In this document: positions 11,446-33,914 of the stretch, in pieces
Position numbering within the stretch: position 1 is the first letter of the stretch
Layout of the letters: every line of letters starts with the position of its first letter
Source of the DNA: Candidatus Uhrbacteria bacterium
GTDB taxonomy: Bacteria > Patescibacteriota > Patescibacteriia > JACRJV01
Length of the DNA: 44,684 nucleotides
Direction of reading: 5' to 3'
Assembly: GCA_016215325.1 (NCBI GenBank)
Contig: JACRJV010000023.1
Location: forward strand, 1-44,684
Translations under genes and position numbers: made by a program
The notes under the pieces: generated by a model
What the model was told of the DNA's origin: nothing
Database searches by the model: none
Seen by the model: only the letters and a program-made list of their open reading frames with translations

Positions 11446-13029
11446 TTATACCATGTACGATAACAAGCTTTTCCCCGTCATCTCCGGCGGTTTTGGCAGC
11501 CCCATGAGTTCCAAAATAGTCGGCGCCACATCAGCAAGAATTCCGATCGGTGTGGGGTTATCCAGGAGCATCGTTATTTCTTCTGATGATTTTTGTCGAC
11601 GTCGCTGCTGATCCACGATACATAATGGGACGGGGTTGGCTGTATGTTCTTTCGAGGGCTGGCCGCTCGAGGGGTCTTTTTTTTGCTCCGCATTGCCATG
11701 ATCCGCCGTAATGACAAGGACCCCATCGATCTGCTCCACCGCCGAAACGATCTTGGCAAGACATTGGTCAACCACCTCTACCCCTTTTACCGTTGCATTA
11801 AAGTCGCCCGTATGACCGACCATATCCGCATTGGCAAAATTTGTAACAATCAAGGCATATTTCCGGGACACAATCTCGGCAACCAGCCGCTCGGTGATCT
11901 CCCGCGCGCTCATTTCTGGGACAGTCGCATAACTCTCCACCTTCTTTGAAGGGACTAACACGCGTGTTTCATTTGCGTATTCTTTTTCTCCTCCCCCGTT
12001 AAAAAAATAAGTGACGTGCGCGTACTTTTCGGTCTCCGCAATGCGCAATTGTGCAAGCCCCTGATCCGCAATCACTTTGCCCAACGGTTCCGTCACGGGC
12101 TGCGGAGGGAATGCCACGCATACGGGCAAATCTTTTTCGTATTCGATCATGGTCACCATGAGGAGGTCTGTATAAATTTTTGCGCGGGTAAAACCCGAAA
12201 AGCCTTTGACAACAAATGCTTGCGTAAGTTGCCGAGCGCGATCTTCGCGATAATTAAAAAAAATGAGAGCGTCGCCATCGTTGATCGTTGCAACAGGCGT
12301 ACGGCCATCGACGATCACGGTCGGGACAATTTCCTCATCAAATATTTGTTTTGTATAAGATTGTTGGACGGCATCTTCCGCCGTCGTCGCTGTCGATCCC
12401 TTCGCTTCGGTCATCGCCTCATACGCTTTTTGGACGCGATCCCAATTGGTGTTGCGATCCATAGAATAATAACGCCCTGCGACAGTCGCGATCTTGCCCC
12501 GTCCGTACTGTTTGATCGCTGCGCGAATCTGCGCTACGAACTCCAGCGCTTTTTGCGGCGCCGTGTCCCTGCCATCGGTGATCATATGGATGGCAACTCG
12601 ATCAACTCCTTGCTGCTGGCAAAGTGCAAGCAAATGTTCGAGATGTTCAATATGCGCGTGGACTCCGCCCGAACTGCATAGTCCCAGCAAGTGAAGCGTC
12701 CCGCCATTGGCTTGAACACGCTTACAGGCTTTAATGAACTCGAGGTTGTTGAAAAAACTTTTATCTTCGATAGCAAGCTGAATGCGGGGAAGATTCTGGT
12801 ACACGACCATGCCCGCGCCAATCCCAAGATGCCCGACTTCCGAGTTGCCGGGTTCGCCCCACATGACACCGACCGCGATCCCAGACGCCTCGAGCGGCCC
12901 TACGGGGAACTCACTCCACAGGCGGTTGATCGTTGGGGTGTTCGCCGATCGGATGGCATTACCGTCCGTTTGCGAACTCATACCAAAGCCATCGAGGATT
13001 GTGAGGACAATGGTGCGGGGGTTGGCCAT
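11446..13029 (-). CDS. gpmI: 2,3-BPG-independent phosphoglycerate mutase
   Basis: Interconverts 3- and 2-phosphoglycerate in lower glycolysis using two manganese ions and a phosphoserine. At 527 residues it matches the family. D13 in LTILDGFG binds metal and S63 in GNSEVGH is the phosphorylated serine. The phosphotransferase domain has RYYSMDRN. The C-terminal metal-binding motifs include NFANADMVGHTGD and ITADHGNAE. It starts with ATG 13029, nine bases after the inositol-phosphatase-like gene, and ends five bases before the protease gene. The short gaps suggest one transcript. Confidence 0.96.
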   Translation of the reverse strand: MANPRTIVLTILDGFGMSSQTDGNAIRSANTPTINRLWSEFPVGPLEASGIAVGVMWGEPGNSEVGHLGIGAGMVVYQNLPRIQLAIEDKSFFNNLEFIKACKRVQANGGTLHLLGLCSSGGVHAHIEHLEHLLALCQQQGVDRVAIHMITDGRDTAPQKALEFVAQIRAAIKQYGRGKIATVAGRYYSMDRNTNWDRVQKAYEAMTEAKGSTATTAEDAVQQSYTKQIFDEEIVPTVIVDGRTPVATINDGDALIFFNYREDRARQLTQAFVVKGFSGFTRAKIYTDLLMVTMIEYEKDLPVCVAFPPQPVTEPLGKVIADQGLAQLRIAETEKYAHVTYFFNGGGEKEYANETRVLVPSKKVESYATVPEMSAREITERLVAEIVSRKYALIVTNFANADMVGHTGDFNATVKGVEVVDQCLAKIVSAVEQIDGVLVITADHGNAEQKKDPSSGQPSKEHTANPVPLCIVDQQRRRQKSSEEITMLLDNPTPIGILADVAPTILELMGLPKPPEMTGKSLLSYMV

Positions 13030-26921: not shown

Positions 26922-28223
26922 TTAATGCTTTGAAGTGAGGAACGTCTTGAGATCCTCAAATGTATTGCCAATGACAATCGATTGCTTGGCGCGTGCTGCA
27001 TACGCGCCCAGTCGATCAGGCATGGGGACTGTTTGACCGATCGCGGGCTCAACGACATCGGCGAATTTTGCGGGATGAGCAGTTTCTACGATCACCCCGG
27101 TGCAACTGGAATGCATCTGTTGGTATTCTTGGAGCGCCAAATACCCGACTGCCCCGTGTGGGTCCATGATATAGCCGTATTGCTTATATGTTGTCGCAAT
27201 GGCTCTCGTGGTCTGACCATCGGTGAATGAATAGCCGATGACGTCGTGGCGCATGGCCTCTACATCATTATTGTACAAGGCCTGCATCCGCGCAAAGTTG
27301 CTGGGGTTGCCCACATCCATGGCATTGGAAACGGTCGAAACACTCGGTTTTGGATGAAACACGCCGGTGCGCAGATACTGTGCCAATGTATCATTATTGT
27401 TGTTGGCAGCAATAAAATGTTGTATCGGGGCACCCATGCGTTTTGCCATGAGGCCTGCCGTGAGATTGCCCAGATTACCGCTCGGGACGGAAACGGTAAT
27501 CGGCATCCATTGCGGGCGCAATCGTGAACAAAGAAAAATATAATAAAACATTTGCGGGAGCAGCCGAGCAATATTAATAGAGTTTGCACTCGCGAGTTTC
27601 ATTCGCTGCGCGAGCTCTGGATCCAAAAACGCCGTTTTAACCATTGCCTGGCAGTCGTCAAAACTCCCCTGCACTTCCAGTGCCGTGATATTTTGGCCCA
27701 TGGTCGTCAATTGCTTTTCTTGCATGACGCTGACTCGACCGCTCGGATATAAGATCACTACATCAATCTTGTCGACACCTAAAAATCCGTGCGCAACGGC
27801 GCTGCCGGTATCGCCGCTGGTGGCCACAAGCACGGTGATCCGCTGGTCGAATTCTTGCGCATAGTGTGCCATCAAGCGCGCCATGAACCGCGCAGCAAAA
27901 TCTTTGAATGCAAGGGTTGGCCCGTGAAAAAGTTCTAACACCCAACTATCACGATCGAGCTGGACAAGAGGGACATCAAAGTTGAATGATTCGTCTACTA
28001 TGCGGCGGTATTCGAACCCCGGAACGCTGTCGAGAAAATACGGTGCGCCAAAAATGTAAGCGATGTCCTGAAACGACAACGAATCCATCGCCCCGATAAA
28101 CTCTGGAGAAACATGCGGGATCTCCGACGGCATGTAGAGGCCTCCGTCAGGCGCAAGTCCATTGAGTACGGCTTGTTGGAGGCTAACGGCGGGAGAACTC
28201 CCGTTCGTGCTCTGATAGTTCAC
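26922..28223 (-). CDS. thrC: Threonine synthase
   Basis: Converts O-phosphohomoserine to threonine with pyridoxal phosphate. The 433 residues include LELFHGPTLAFKDFAARFM, with the PLP-binding Lys, then VATSGDTGSAVAHGF, ILYPSGRVSVMQEKQL and SVPSGNLGNLTAGL. The overall pattern is that of the bacterial E. coli/Bacteroidetes-type enzyme. The start is set at GTG 28223 because VNYQSTNGSSPAVSLQ matches the usual family N-terminus (KYxSTxG...VS). This start overlaps the P-loop kinase gene by 41 bases. It is the last biosynthetic gene of the threonine set. Confidence 0.93.
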   Translation of the reverse strand: MNYQSTNGSSPAVSLQQAVLNGLAPDGGLYMPSEIPHVSPEFIGAMDSLSFQDIAYIFGAPYFLDSVPGFEYRRIVDESFNFDVPLVQLDRDSWVLELFHGPTLAFKDFAARFMARLMAHYAQEFDQRITVLVATSGDTGSAVAHGFLGVDKIDVVILYPSGRVSVMQEKQLTTMGQNITALEVQGSFDDCQAMVKTAFLDPELAQRMKLASANSINIARLLPQMFYYIFLCSRLRPQWMPITVSVPSGNLGNLTAGLMAKRMGAPIQHFIAANNNNDTLAQYLRTGVFHPKPSVSTVSNAMDVGNPSNFARMQALYNNDVEAMRHDVIGYSFTDGQTTRAIATTYKQYGYIMDPHGAVGYLALQEYQQMHSSCTGVIVETAHPAKFADVVEPAIGQTVPMPDRLGAYAARAKQSIVIGNTFEDLKTFLTSKH

Positions 28224-28896
28224 AATGTTTATGAACAAGGTTGATAAATTCCGAAAGTTCCATCCCTTCGGTAATTTCTTCCCGGGGAATCATGATATCT
28301 GCCAACTGCTCATAGAGCCCGCTGCGGACCTCCAGGAGTTTTAAATAGGATCGTGCCAAGGCTTGCTCATTTGTTTCATCGGGCAGCTTGGTGAACACAG
28401 ACCCGAAACACACCGGCTCCAACTCTTTAATGTATTTCTCGTACATCTCTCGTTTTCGATCTTCCGTCGCTCGGATCCCGACGACCAGTGTCTTTTGTTT
28501 GAGTTCTTCACCAATAGAGGGGTCCAGGTGGATGACGCTTCCCGTGGTATCGATCGCCGTGTTGCCGGGTGTCTTTTGAACTTCCACTAATGCCTCGCGC
28601 GTAACATCAGCTTCGATCTCAAGGTACCGCTGCTGATGTTGGGCATAGCGCTCGTCATAGGGCTGCCCCATCCAGCGCGATACATCGGCAATACCTCCGC
28701 CATATCCAGCAGCTTTCAATTCCGGGGTGAGGATCGCTTCGATGCGGTCATCGCACCCGATATACCGGAATCCTAACTTCTTCGCAAATTCATTCCGCGC
28801 CCAATGGGTTTTCCCAAGGTTGCTCATGCCAACAAACGTAATGACGAGCCGGTTGCTGAGATGGGCTTGGTCGAATTGTTCCCGCGTCATGTGCAT
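28183..28896 (-). CDS. P-loop small-molecule kinase, candidate homoserine kinase
   Basis: A 237-residue P-loop kinase-like protein. Walker A is GMSNLGKT (residues 23-30), followed by a shikimate-kinase-like sequence RYIGCDDRIEAI (D49, D50) and a lid-like GQPYDERYAQHQQRYLEIE region. The C-terminus is helical and charged. It sits between asd and thrC in the order thrA-asd-this-thrC, where a homoserine kinase gene (thrB) would be expected, and no GHMP-type ThrB is visible in the window. Homoserine kinase activity is therefore an inference from context; it could be another kinase. The start at ATG 28896 follows a good Shine-Dalgarno (AAAGGA, 6-7 bases). It overlaps asd by 10 bases. Confidence 0.75.
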   Translation of the reverse strand: MHMTREQFDQAHLSNRLVITFVGMSNLGKTHWARNEFAKKLGFRYIGCDDRIEAILTPELKAAGYGGGIADVSRWMGQPYDERYAQHQQRYLEIEADVTREALVEVQKTPGNTAIDTTGSVIHLDPSIGEELKQKTLVVGIRATEDRKREMYEKYIKELEPVCFGSVFTKLPDETNEQALARSYLKLLEVRSGLYEQLADIMIPREEITEGMELSEFINLVHKHCELSEHEREFSRR

Positions 28897-29972
28897 ATAT
28901 ATCCTTTCGCAACGAGCAATTCTGCAATCAGCACTGCCCCGCCGGCAGCGCCGCGGATGGTGTTGTGCGAAAGGCTTACGCATTTCCAACCGCCCAGCGG
29001 GTCCTCGCGCAACCGCCCCATGCTAATGCCCATCCCGTGATCAATATTCCGATCCAGTTTTGTCTGCGGGCGGTTCTCTTCATCGAAATAGGTGATAAAT
29101 GGCTCTGGCGCAGAGGGTAATTTTAAGTCGCTCAATGGATTCGGGAAATTCCGGATCGCGTCCAGTAGTTGCTGTTTGGTGGGGCTGCCCTTGAACAACA
29201 CATTCAGGGTCGCAAAATGCCCGTCCGAAGCGCTCACGCGGATGCATTGGGCCGAAATGCGTGGTGTCTCTGACAATATAAATTCCCCATCAACAATGGT
29301 TGCCCAAATTTTGAGCGGTTCTTTCTCACTCTTTTCTTCTTCTCCGCCAATATAGGGGATGACATTGTCGACCATTTCGGGCCAAGTGGCAAATGTTTTG
29401 CCTGCACCGGAGATCGCTTGATACGTGGAAACGCGCAATTGTTGAGGCTCAAATTGCTTCCATGCCTCCAAGATCGGGACATAACATTGAATCGAGCAAT
29501 TGGGTTTGACAACGATGAACCCCGTATTCCATCCGCGATGGTTGCGTTGCACCGGAATCATATCCAAATGGTGGGGATTAACCTCTGGCATAATCATAGG
29601 CACATCAGCGGTCCAACGGTTGGCAGAATTATTCGAGACGACCGCTACCCCGGCTTTGGCATACCCGTCTTCGATCGATCTAATTGCGTCGGCATCCAAA
29701 TCAATCGCGCAAAACACAAGTTTTACTTTTGAAGCAATGGTCACAAGGTCCTGGTCCACAGCATACACGGGCATTTGCTTCACCGCATCGGGCATCGGCT
29801 CGACGAGTGCCCAACGATTGCCGATGGCCTGATCGTAGGGCTTGCCCGCAGAGGCAGACGATGCCCCCAGTGCTGAAATTTCAAACCATGGGTGCTTGGC
29901 CAAGAGAGTGACAAATCGCTGGCCCACCATCCCAGTAGCGCCTAAAATTCCAACGGGGATTTTTTGCTGCAT
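28887..29972 (-). CDS. asd: Aspartate-semialdehyde dehydrogenase
   Basis: Reduces aspartyl phosphate to aspartate semialdehyde with NADPH, the branch step to threonine and lysine. At 361 residues and with an archaeal/fungal-style sequence (GILGATGMVGQRFV, NNSANRW, PNCSIQC with the catalytic Cys, SGAGKTF), it is not the usual short bacterial type. The C-terminal part has HNTIRGAAGG. It starts three bases after the thrA-encoded stop and ends with a 10-base overlap into the kinase gene, so all four genes form one unit. Confidence 0.92.
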   Translation of the reverse strand: MQQKIPVGILGATGMVGQRFVTLLAKHPWFEISALGASSASAGKPYDQAIGNRWALVEPMPDAVKQMPVYAVDQDLVTIASKVKLVFCAIDLDADAIRSIEDGYAKAGVAVVSNNSANRWTADVPMIMPEVNPHHLDMIPVQRNHRGWNTGFIVVKPNCSIQCYVPILEAWKQFEPQQLRVSTYQAISGAGKTFATWPEMVDNVIPYIGGEEEKSEKEPLKIWATIVDGEFILSETPRISAQCIRVSASDGHFATLNVLFKGSPTKQQLLDAIRNFPNPLSDLKLPSAPEPFITYFDEENRPQTKLDRNIDHGMGISMGRLREDPLGGWKCVSLSHNTIRGAAGGAVLIAELLVAKGYICT

Positions 29973-29975
29973 ATT

Positions 29976-30899
29976 CTAACTCTTAAAACATTGAATAATG
30001 TCCGCTAATACTCCGCCCGCCGTCACTTCGGCTCCGGCGCCAGGGCCGCGAATCACCAGTGGCGTCGTGTTGTAGCGCTTGGTGGTAAACATCACAATGT
30101 TATCGCTGCCGCTCAACCCATACATCGCGTGTGTGCGGTCAACGGCGGTCAGTGCGATACGCGCCTCACCGTTGTCCAGCGTTGCCACAAAACATAACTT
30201 CTTATTATCCGCTGCAGCGAGTTGTTTTTTTGATTCGAAATCTACATTGAGTGTTTCCAGTGCTGTAAAGAATTGTTCGATGGATGGAGCGCTAAAACAT
30301 TCTGCCGGCAGCAGGGCCTCGATCTGGACATCCGCAAGCTCCATCGCCAATCCCATCTCACGTGCCAAAATCAAGATCTTTCGCGCAACGTCTTTGCCGT
30401 TTAGATCATCGCGCGGGTCTGGCTCGGTATAACCTTTGCTCTGGGCATCCCGAACAATGGCGCTGAAGGGCAGGTTGGATGATGCAAATGTATTAAAAAT
30501 GTAGCTCAGGGTGCCGGAAAGGACCGCTTCGATCCGGATAATCTCATCGCCGCATTGCATCAGGCTTTTGATCGTATGAATGACGGGCAGCGCCGCGCCG
30601 ACATTTGTTTCGTATCGAAACACGGCGCCGTTGTCGCCGCTTGCGTTCTGGAGCGCCCGATACTGCTCTAGGGACCCGGAGTTCCCTTTTTTATTGGGGG
30701 TGACCACAGAGATGCCGCGCTCGAGTAGCCCCCGATACCAACGCGGGATTTCTTCACTGGCCGTGCAGTCCACGAAGACGCTGCTGCCCGGGCGCGCCTC
30801 TTGGACAGCACGCACAAACTGTTCGGGACTGCTCGCCGAACCGCTGCTTATTGATTTTTTCCAGGCATCCAGCGCAATGCCCTGGGGGTCGATCAACAT
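29976..30899 (-). CDS. Homoserine dehydrogenase part of ThrA, truncated at its start
   Basis: The 307-residue product holds the catalytic half of homoserine dehydrogenase: VFVDCTASEEIP, VVTPNKKGNSGSL, YETNVGAALPVI, LSGTLSYIFN and GYTEPDPRDDLNG, and it ends with RGPGAGAEVTAGGVLADI. If translated from ATG 30899 it lacks the GxGxxG nucleotide fold, which is encoded just upstream in the same frame but without a start codon. A functional enzyme would need a frameshift repair, a fused product, or a non-standard start. It ends three bases before asd. Confidence 0.7.
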   Translation of the reverse strand: MLIDPQGIALDAWKKSISSGSASSPEQFVRAVQEARPGSSVFVDCTASEEIPRWYRGLLERGISVVTPNKKGNSGSLEQYRALQNASGDNGAVFRYETNVGAALPVIHTIKSLMQCGDEIIRIEAVLSGTLSYIFNTFASSNLPFSAIVRDAQSKGYTEPDPRDDLNGKDVARKILILAREMGLAMELADVQIEALLPAECFSAPSIEQFFTALETLNVDFESKKQLAAADNKKLCFVATLDNGEARIALTAVDRTHAMYGLSGSDNIVMFTTKRYNTTPLVIRGPGAGAEVTAGGVLADIIQCFKS

Positions 30900-30934
30900 A
30901 GTTTTTTGGTTTGCAATGCCGCAAACGCGGATCG

Positions 30935-31297
30935 TCAGGCCGTATTGTGTATAATGGCGTTCCTTCGCTTCATGGATTTGCTTAAGCAGCGTCCCGCCAA
31001 TAAGCCCGGTGCCGATGAGGAATACATGAATCGTTCGCTGGCTCCCCTCTGAAAAGAATGCTTCATGAATGGCGTTGACTCTGCCGATTTCTCATCGTTC
31101 ATCTCAACGACAGCGGAAATATTGAGTTCCGAAGATCCTTGGGCAATGGCGACGATATTGATCCCGAGCCGGCCAAGAGTATCAAAGACTTTCCCCGCGA
31201 TGCCGGGGACTCCTTTCATTTGCTCCCCCACCACTGCCACAATCGAGAGGTGATCTTGGACCGTGATCGGGCTCATCCGCTGCATTTGGAGTTCCAT
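30935..31297 (-). CDS. ThrA middle fragment with an ACT domain
   Basis: A 120-residue reading frame in the same frame as the aspartate kinase part, beyond its stop. It carries an ACT-domain sequence (LSIVAVVGEQMKGVPGIAGKVF and NIVAIAQGSSELNIS) that matches the second ACT region of ThrA. It then goes out of frame after EMNDEKSA; the rest of the open frame is nonsense. Unlikely to be a gene by itself; listed as a part of the disrupted thrA. Confidence 0.45.
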   Translation of the reverse strand: MELQMQRMSPITVQDHLSIVAVVGEQMKGVPGIAGKVFDTLGRLGINIVAIAQGSSELNISAVVEMNDEKSAESTPFMKHSFQRGASERFMYSSSAPGLLAGRCLSKSMKRRNAIIHNTA

Positions 31298-31381
31298 CTC
31301 AAAAACTTCTTCCAGCAGTTTTTGCGCCGCAGTCGCCTGGGGTGCATGGACGCCGATACAAACACTCGGCTCATACGAGGC

Positions 31382-32431
31382 TTACGTGGTAAGCAATACT
31401 TCGATGTGTTCCTTGGAAAGCGCCTGAAATACACGAGCGGAAATCTCCGAAATATATTTGATGCTGCTGCTTTGCAATCGTAACAACGCGATATTGGCTA
31501 ACGACGAGACACCCGTGACAAGGTGTTGGCGTTGTTTGGAAACTCCGTCAATCAGCGTCCCCGGCGCCTCGGGGTTAAAAGTATTTTTAATGAGAATTGG
31601 AATATTCTTGAGCCGTGCGGGCTTCATGGTTTTGGGATGAATGACCTTTGCCCCAAAGTGCGCGAGCTCCCCTGCTTCCTCGTACGAAATTGATGTGAGC
31701 GGAAACGCGCCCTTCACATGCCGCGGATCTGCCGTCATGACCCCATCCACATCGGTCCAAATTTCGATGATCGGAGCATCCAACGCTGCGCCCAGCAGCG
31801 ATGCTGTATAATCAGAGCCGCCGCGGCCCAACGTAGTCGTAACCCCGCTTTGGTCTGCGGCAATAAAGCCGCCCATCACCGAAAGCCCTTGTTGCTGCTT
31901 GAACGCATGGGCAATCCGCTGATAGGTGGCTTCGATCTGCACAGCGGCATGCCCAAATTTATTGTCGGTTTGGATGAGCTCGCGCGCATCGACATACGTA
32001 CAAGGCACGCCGCGATAATTGAATGCCGCGCTGATGATTTGCGCAGAAAGTTGCTCGCCCGTGCTCATAATGGCGTCGAGCGCCTGAGTAGAGAGCTCTT
32101 TGAGCAGTGCAACGCCTTGGAGCAGGTTGTCGAGTTCATCGCAGAGTTTTTGGGCCTGCGTCTGGACGGGTTGCCGGGCGTTTGTCCCAAGGAGTTCTTC
32201 GATCATCTCTTGGTGTTTGCGGCAAAGCGCTTCAAACAGGGCCTGATACGAGTCGTTCCCAGACCGTGCGGCTTCCGCCATTTGAATCAGGCTGTCGGTT
32301 ATCCCGCCCGCGGCAGAGACGACCACGATAATATCGTGATCCTGTTGGTGTTGTCCCAAGACAATATCAATAACGCGGCTGATATTGGCCGCGTTGGCAA
32401 CAGACGAACCCCCAAATTTAAGCACTTTCAT
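31382..32431 (-). CDS. Aspartate kinase part of ThrA, ending at an in-frame stop
   Basis: A 349-residue product as written. It starts MKVLKFGGSSVANA, the conserved aspartate kinase N-terminus, with later VVSAAGG, MSTGEQLSA, GFIAADQSG, TTLGRGGSDYTA, WTDVDGVMTADPR and SYEEAGELAHFGAKVIHPKTM. It phosphorylates aspartate at the head of the threonine/lysine pathway. It includes the first ACT region (ISARVFQALSKEHIEVLLTT) and then stops where a Gln codon is expected. The kinase domain itself is complete and could still work on its own. The start ATG is 8 bases after a -10 box, so it is probably leaderless. Confidence 0.85.
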   Translation of the reverse strand: MKVLKFGGSSVANAANISRVIDIVLGQHQQDHDIIVVVSAAGGITDSLIQMAEAARSGNDSYQALFEALCRKHQEMIEELLGTNARQPVQTQAQKLCDELDNLLQGVALLKELSTQALDAIMSTGEQLSAQIISAAFNYRGVPCTYVDARELIQTDNKFGHAAVQIEATYQRIAHAFKQQQGLSVMGGFIAADQSGVTTTLGRGGSDYTASLLGAALDAPIIEIWTDVDGVMTADPRHVKGAFPLTSISYEEAGELAHFGAKVIHPKTMKPARLKNIPILIKNTFNPEAPGTLIDGVSKQRQHLVTGVSSLANIALLRLQSSSIKYISEISARVFQALSKEHIEVLLTT

Positions 32432-33392: not shown

Positions 33393-33914
33393 CTAAATAT
33401 TCGCTATGATTTTCTGAACCATCACCTCAACAGGCTGCTGGGCATCAATAACAATCGCCCCCTTTATGATCATTTCTTTTTCAAATTCACCCTGCCAACT
33501 GAGAACGTGCCCTACTTCTGTTTCGCTTTTCCCGAATTCATCTTGCCCGGGCCGATCCTCAAGCCGTTGACGCACTACTGAGGGTGGAATCTGCAGTAAG
33601 AACACTTTGTCAAACCGATGAAGTTGATCAAGAATATCAGAAGTGACTCCAACGACAAATACAGGATTTCCCGGATCACGATTCAGTAGTTCGGTCATCA
33701 TCGCCTCATCCCAAAGCCATGCATGGCGATTGAGCCACTCTTCGCTCACCTTGCCGGGCGTGTACTCGGCGCGTTCGCCTGTTTGTTTATTAATCCAATG
33801 GGTAAGCCTAGGTTCTTGATCAATATCAATGGTCCGATACCCTTTTTTCCATAGTTCATTTTCCACTGTTGATTTCCCCGAACCACTCACCCCCACAATA
33901 AGATATTTTTTCAT
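33393..33914 (-). CDS. P-loop nucleotide kinase-like protein
   Basis: A 173-residue AAA/adenylate-kinase-like P-loop protein. Walker A is GVSGSGKST (residues 8-16), followed by KKGYRTIDIDQEPRLTHWI, a later VFVVGV strand (Walker B-like without a clear acidic residue), and QIPPSVVRQRLEDRPGQDEFG as a possible lid region. The substrate is unknown. This short form is common in bacterial genomes without a defined role. It is preceded on its upstream side by a dispersed palindromic repeat. Confidence 0.7.
   Translation of the reverse strand: MKKYLIVGVSGSGKSTVENELWKKGYRTIDIDQEPRLTHWINKQTGERAEYTPGKVSEEWLNRHAWLWDEAMMTELLNRDPGNPVFVVGVTSDILDQLHRFDKVFLLQIPPSVVRQRLEDRPGQDEFGKSETEVGHVLSWQGEFEKEMIIKGAIVIDAQQPVEVMVQKIIANI

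Follow-up and report, generated by a model that had tools for sequence, protein, structure and literature searches.

How does a bacterium that carries the genes for making threonine phosphorylate homoserine, when neither of the usual homoserine kinases is encoded beside them? This question is raised by the window, i.e. the whole stretch of 44,684 nucleotides analysed here from Candidatus Uhrbacteria bacterium (contig JACRJV010000023.1), in which adjoining genes on the minus strand run in the order thrA (broken), asd, a P-loop kinase gene and thrC:

31080..32431, minus strand: thrA, aspartate kinase half, with an in-frame TAA at 31382-31384
29976..31080, minus strand: thrA, homoserine dehydrogenase half, after the frameshift
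28887..29972, minus strand: asd, aspartate-semialdehyde dehydrogenase (NF006416, 1.7e-133)
28183..28896, minus strand: P-loop kinase gene, 237 aa, proposed homoserine kinase of a long, divergent shikimate-kinase-like family
26922..28223, minus strand: thrC, threonine synthase, starting with GTG at 28223 (TIGR00260, 2.8e-83)

The genes are closely packed, as hom, which ends at 29976, is separated from asd by 3 bases, asd and the kinase gene overlap by 10 bases, and the kinase gene and thrC by 41 bases. Rereading of the open reading frames, together with profile matches, bore out this arrangement as the first-pass annotation had described it, including the intact kinase frame of 237 residues with the motifs GMSNLGKT and YIGCDDRIE, and the disruption of thrA. 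Compared with an intact 812-residue relative from locus L027, thrA carries that single stop and a single frameshift near 31080, and is otherwise in frame; with the downstream genes intact, this break is either a fresh pseudogene or a product of assembly errors. Upstream of the threonine operon, at 33393-33914, the window also encodes a second small P-loop kinase (AAA_18, 173 aa).

The kinase gene would fill the sole gap between hom and thrC, and it co-occurs with thrC, not with ThrB. The first-pass annotation had stated that neither ThrB nor ThrB2 is encoded in the window; indeed, PF00288 (GHMP kinases), PF01636 (aminoglycoside phosphotransferases), TIGR00191 (ThrB) and TIGR00938 (ThrB2) were all without a match there, and extending the search to the genome (1.14 Mb, 92.6% complete), in which thrC is present, gave no match to any of the four models either. 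The kinase protein itself has no PF00288 match and no aminoglycoside-phosphotransferase-type kinase domain. At 92.6% completeness, the evidence for absence of ThrB and ThrB2 is strong, not absolute. ThrB, of the GHMP superfamily, has in common with the window kinase only the proposed reaction and the operon position, without any relation in sequence or fold, and ThrB2 only the proposed reaction, its fold being different. For other bacteria, the apgM-type putative homoserine kinase (TIGR02535, BT2402), encoded close to threonine genes, has also been proposed as a substitute for ThrB; it has a phosphoglycerate-mutase fold, unlike the kinase. As a candidate in this genome it was set aside: TIGR02535 gave weak, partial matches to two proteins (490 and 527 aa) resembling phosphoglycerate mutases, one of them encoded inside the window. 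As a separate observation, two different full-length-looking cofactor-independent phosphoglycerate mutases (window 11446-13029 and L005:1408-2880) occur in this one 1.1-Mb genome.

What kind of protein the kinase is was approached through its predicted structure. The best PDB matches of an AlphaFold2 model built with 70 family members (mean pLDDT 96, pTM 0.91) are shikimate kinases, and the model shows a shikimate-kinase fold of the NMP-kinase-like P-loop type; the earlier impression of a shikimate-kinase-like protein was thus right. The same genome has a dedicated shikimate kinase of 178 aa, with FRxxE and GGG motifs, at L136:14656-15192. It belongs to an operon (G000:C18:14400-34300) whose genes, named from their translations, are aroA-aroK-aroQ-aroE-DAHP synthase-aroB-aroC, followed by pheA/tyrA-like genes; a full shikimate/aromatic operon is unusual in a phylum with such small genomes.

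Alignment with shikimate kinases (AroK/AroL, PF01202) placed the following positions of the window kinase:

28807..28830, minus strand: Walker A motif GMSNLGKT (residues 23-30), in which G23 and K29 do not vary among 70 relatives
28750..28752, minus strand: Asp49, at the shikimate-kinase Asp34 position; the same residue in every group compared
28660..28674, minus strand: family-specific W-x-G-x-P, residues 75-79; W75, G77 and P79 unchanged among 70 relatives
28621..28623, minus strand: Leu92, at the shikimate-kinase Arg58 position
28537..28551, minus strand: D116-T-T-G-S120, with a gained Walker-B-like Asp116, and Ser120
28324..28326, minus strand: Arg191, aligned with shikimate-kinase Arg136; invariant

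The two enzymes thus have in common the fold, the Walker A motif and the equivalents of Asp34, Glu61 (here E95) and Arg136. In the window kinase, however, Arg58 is replaced by Leu, Gly79-Gly80-Gly81 by Thr-Gly-Ser, the Asp at position 32 is lost and an Asp is gained at position 77, and there are extra segments in the lid and around W75-P79, the latter an invariant, family-specific insert in the substrate-binding part. These differences separate whole groups. The hallmarks Arg58 and GGG, which the window kinase lacks (L92 and TGS), are present in 25 of 25 shikimate kinases, whereas the 31 long-family members compared have T-G-S and, at the Arg58 position, L, I or V (31/31), with L in the three Desulfovibrio-type proteins (3/3). 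The Ser120 position is Gly in 25/25 shikimate kinases and Ser in all homoserine-kinase-like groups; the Asp32 position is lost in 29 of 31 long-family members, and the newly gained D116 is invariant. The roles assigned to these residues follow the shikimate kinase of M. tuberculosis, namely Asp34 as base, Asp32 as metal ligand, Arg136 as carboxylate-binding residue, and Arg58, whose numbering comes from the same enzyme, as a shikimate-binding residue.

A relative of shikimate kinase that acts on homoserine is already on record. DvMF_0971 of Desulfovibrio vulgaris was shown in 2018 to be a homoserine kinase, by mutant fitness and by its ability to rescue a thrB mutant of E. coli (PMC5764234); Price et al. 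used the argument applied here, that D. vulgaris has a separate, true shikimate kinase (PMC5764234). The corresponding model, NF040667, is the best NCBIfam match of the window kinase (2e-6, 27.7 bits over 43 residues), but this score lies approximately 170 bits under the curated cut-off of 197 bits, and none of the 70 relatives comes near it (best E 2.9e-13). The closest curated family is therefore a proven homoserine kinase, though without a call. PF01202 matched 41 of the 70 relatives. NF040667 matched all 70 relatives, versus at most 21 for any single shikimate-kinase model. The window kinase and the DvMF_0971/NF040667 proteins have in common the P-loop fold of the shikimate-kinase family, GS in place of GG of the GGG motif (Ser for Gly81) and Leu in place of Arg58, and the Desulfovibrio host, like the Uhrbacteria genome, has a second, true shikimate kinase. 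They differ in that NF040667 is shorter (163 model positions versus 205-237 aa in the long family), retains the Asp32 position and, unlike the long family, is without Asp116 and W-x-G-x-P; moreover, among the loci fetched, NF040667-type genes are not beside threonine genes. The window kinase is a divergent relative or a parallel of the DvMF_0971 enzyme.

To see how the family is distributed, 84,980 species genomes were scanned, yielding 278 relatives, of which 80 were kept. They were found in Patescibacteria, Acidobacteriota, Myxococcota, Bdellovibrionota, Chloroflexota, Spirochaetota and Alphaproteobacteria. At 44 of the 80 kept loci, the kinase gene has thrC, asd, hom or ak no more than 200 bp away on the same strand, and among these linked loci are some from Patescibacteria, Acidobacteriota, Bdellovibrionota, Myxococcota, Spirochaetota and Alphaproteobacteria; the order is not fixed, thrC being upstream or downstream and the other neighbour being asd or hom. 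The first-pass annotation had held that the frequency with which the gene neighbours thrC would be informative, and that frequent occurrence far from threonine genes would speak against it. Both situations were encountered: thrC itself adjoins the kinase gene within 200 bases on the same strand in 39/80 loci, and approximately 36/80 kinases, mostly from Delta- and Alphaproteobacteria, Myxococcota and Chloroflexota, lie away from threonine genes. Most of the searched genomes with such unlinked members have thrC and lack ThrB; a few are without thrC.

Searches of 62 genomes, including that of the window and two with short forms, found ThrB (TIGR00191) over the cut-off in a single genome, a Woesearchaeota in which the kinase is unlinked, while none of the 59 kinase-bearing genomes had ThrB2 (TIGR00938) over the cut-off and 50 of the 59 had thrC over the cut-off. 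A few patescibacterial and woesearchaeal members come from genomes that lack thrC (L013/L081, L021, L042, L082 and the Woesearchaeota L031), and part of the family may be doing something else. Of 380 evenly sampled genomes from the phylum of the window, 18 contained thrC and 7 the long kinase; 6 had both (Fisher p=3e-8, without correction for kinship), and none had ThrB over the cut-off. Plasmid and phage collections held no relative of the kinase, a viral fold library gave generic P-loop kinases only, and a literature search found no paper on the family in Patescibacteria or Acidobacteria. Several loci have peculiarities of their own. The Woesearchaeota locus L035:4015-5672 has two tandem kinase copies; the related L031 genome, without thrC, carries the GHMP-type ThrB; and at L042:3098-5624, also from a genome without thrC, the kinase gene is directly downstream of a phosphoglycerate-mutase-like gene. 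An apparent kinase fusion in L067 was rejected, being no more than an extended open frame in GC-rich sequence.

Because ThrB and ThrB2 are absent, the genes of this family are linked to thrC, asd and hom in many phyla, NF040667, a proven homoserine kinase family, is the closest model and a separate shikimate kinase exists, the product of the kinase gene is very probably the ATP:L-homoserine phosphotransferase in this Patescibacterium. The assignment of the P-loop protein to this step by the first-pass annotation is thereby well supported. Against it weigh the low score relative to the NF040667 cut-off, the unlinked loci, the genomes without thrC and the broken thrA upstream.

The enzyme would make O-phosphohomoserine, which the thrC product would convert to threonine. 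Judging from the aligned positions, its mode of working would be that of a shikimate kinase: K29 and T30 of Walker A would bind ATP, the invariant D49 would act as base on the substrate hydroxyl, and R191 would grip the carboxylate of homoserine. Many P-loop kinases have a Walker B aspartate at the end of the third strand; D116, at that place, would bind Mg2+ instead of the lost Asp32. With Leu replacing Arg58, the second contact to the shikimate carboxylate, and Ser replacing Gly81, both as in the proven enzyme of Desulfovibrio, the pocket would no longer suit shikimate.

The fold of the model, the PF01202 matches among the relatives and the presence of a shikimate pathway in the genome would all agree with a second shikimate kinase, whose place in the threonine operon would be due to chance or to co-regulation. 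Yet the aro operon already contains a dedicated enzyme, Arg58 and Gly81 are lost here and kept in every shikimate kinase compared, some kinase-bearing genomes (e.g. G429, G435 and G436, thrC-linked) are without chorismate synthase, and the linkage goes to threonine genes; we regard this reading as extremely improbable. A kinase that acts on some other small molecule, or that regulates threonine or aspartate-family metabolism while an unknown enzyme phosphorylates homoserine, would be easier to reconcile with the relatives from genomes without thrC and with the great divergence of the family from the proven enzyme. Homoserine kinase is, however, the only step missing between the neighbours, no other known type is present, and the carboxylate-binding Arg and the catalytic Asp are invariant, which makes such a role quite improbable. 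There is also a small chance that the operon is decaying and that the kinase is here a functionless remnant, as the two lesions of thrA would suggest. Still, asd, the kinase gene and thrC are intact with overlapping starts, the kinase retains all residues that do not vary among 70 relatives, and a metagenome assembly error could explain both lesions.

If the kinase is, as we favour, a homoserine kinase, it remains to be asked where its family came from. In a tree of 71 sequences, shikimate kinases stand apart from all GS-motif proteins (support 100/100) and the long family forms a single clade (100/99). In a wider, quick tree, two short patescibacterial proteins, L015 and L014, branch off directly beneath the long family; the L015 gene is directly upstream of thrC, and its product scores 154 bits to NF040667. 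A single origin of the long family and NF040667 is likely on these sequences, if not proven. Profile comparison was less decisive, with scores for the long family of 137 against NF040667 plus related GS proteins and of 130 against the shikimate kinases; being about equally far from both, it cannot be given a substrate by homology alone. We consider it rather unlikely that the long family arose from a shikimate-kinase-like ancestor and turned to homoserine independently of the Desulfovibrio enzyme, with its metal site rebuilt by loss of Asp32 and gain of the Walker-B Asp116, and its substrate lid rebuilt with W-x-G-x-P. If so, it would represent a further, independent and much wider-spread way of phosphorylating homoserine, and the usual one in threonine-making Patescibacteria.

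The idea of a third evolutionary solution, put forward in the first-pass annotation, does not hold as a novelty, because a shikimate-kinase-like homoserine kinase was published in 2018, when DvMF_0971 complemented an E. coli thrB mutant (PMC5764234), unless an independent origin is shown. The kind of enzyme is already known (DvMF_0971, NF040667); what is new is a widespread, divergent branch with a remodelled active site, called by no curated model, whether from Pfam or NCBIfam. This long branch near NF040667 would stand in for the missing thrB of many Patescibacteria, Acidobacteriota and Alphaproteobacteria, and of other groups. When amino-acid pathways are predicted automatically, homoserine kinase is among the commonest ‘missing’ steps, with low confidence in 29 of 148 prototrophs in the GapMind study, and adding the long family to the models would close this gap for numerous uncultured lineages now resembling threonine auxotrophs. 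The family could also offer a clean, testable case of a change of kinase substrate by few changes in the pocket.

A further group, L110-L130 from Desulfobacterota, is neither a clear shikimate kinase nor a called homoserine kinase: its proteins have a GGS motif and score under the NF040667 cut-off, and some of them keep Arg at the Arg58 position.
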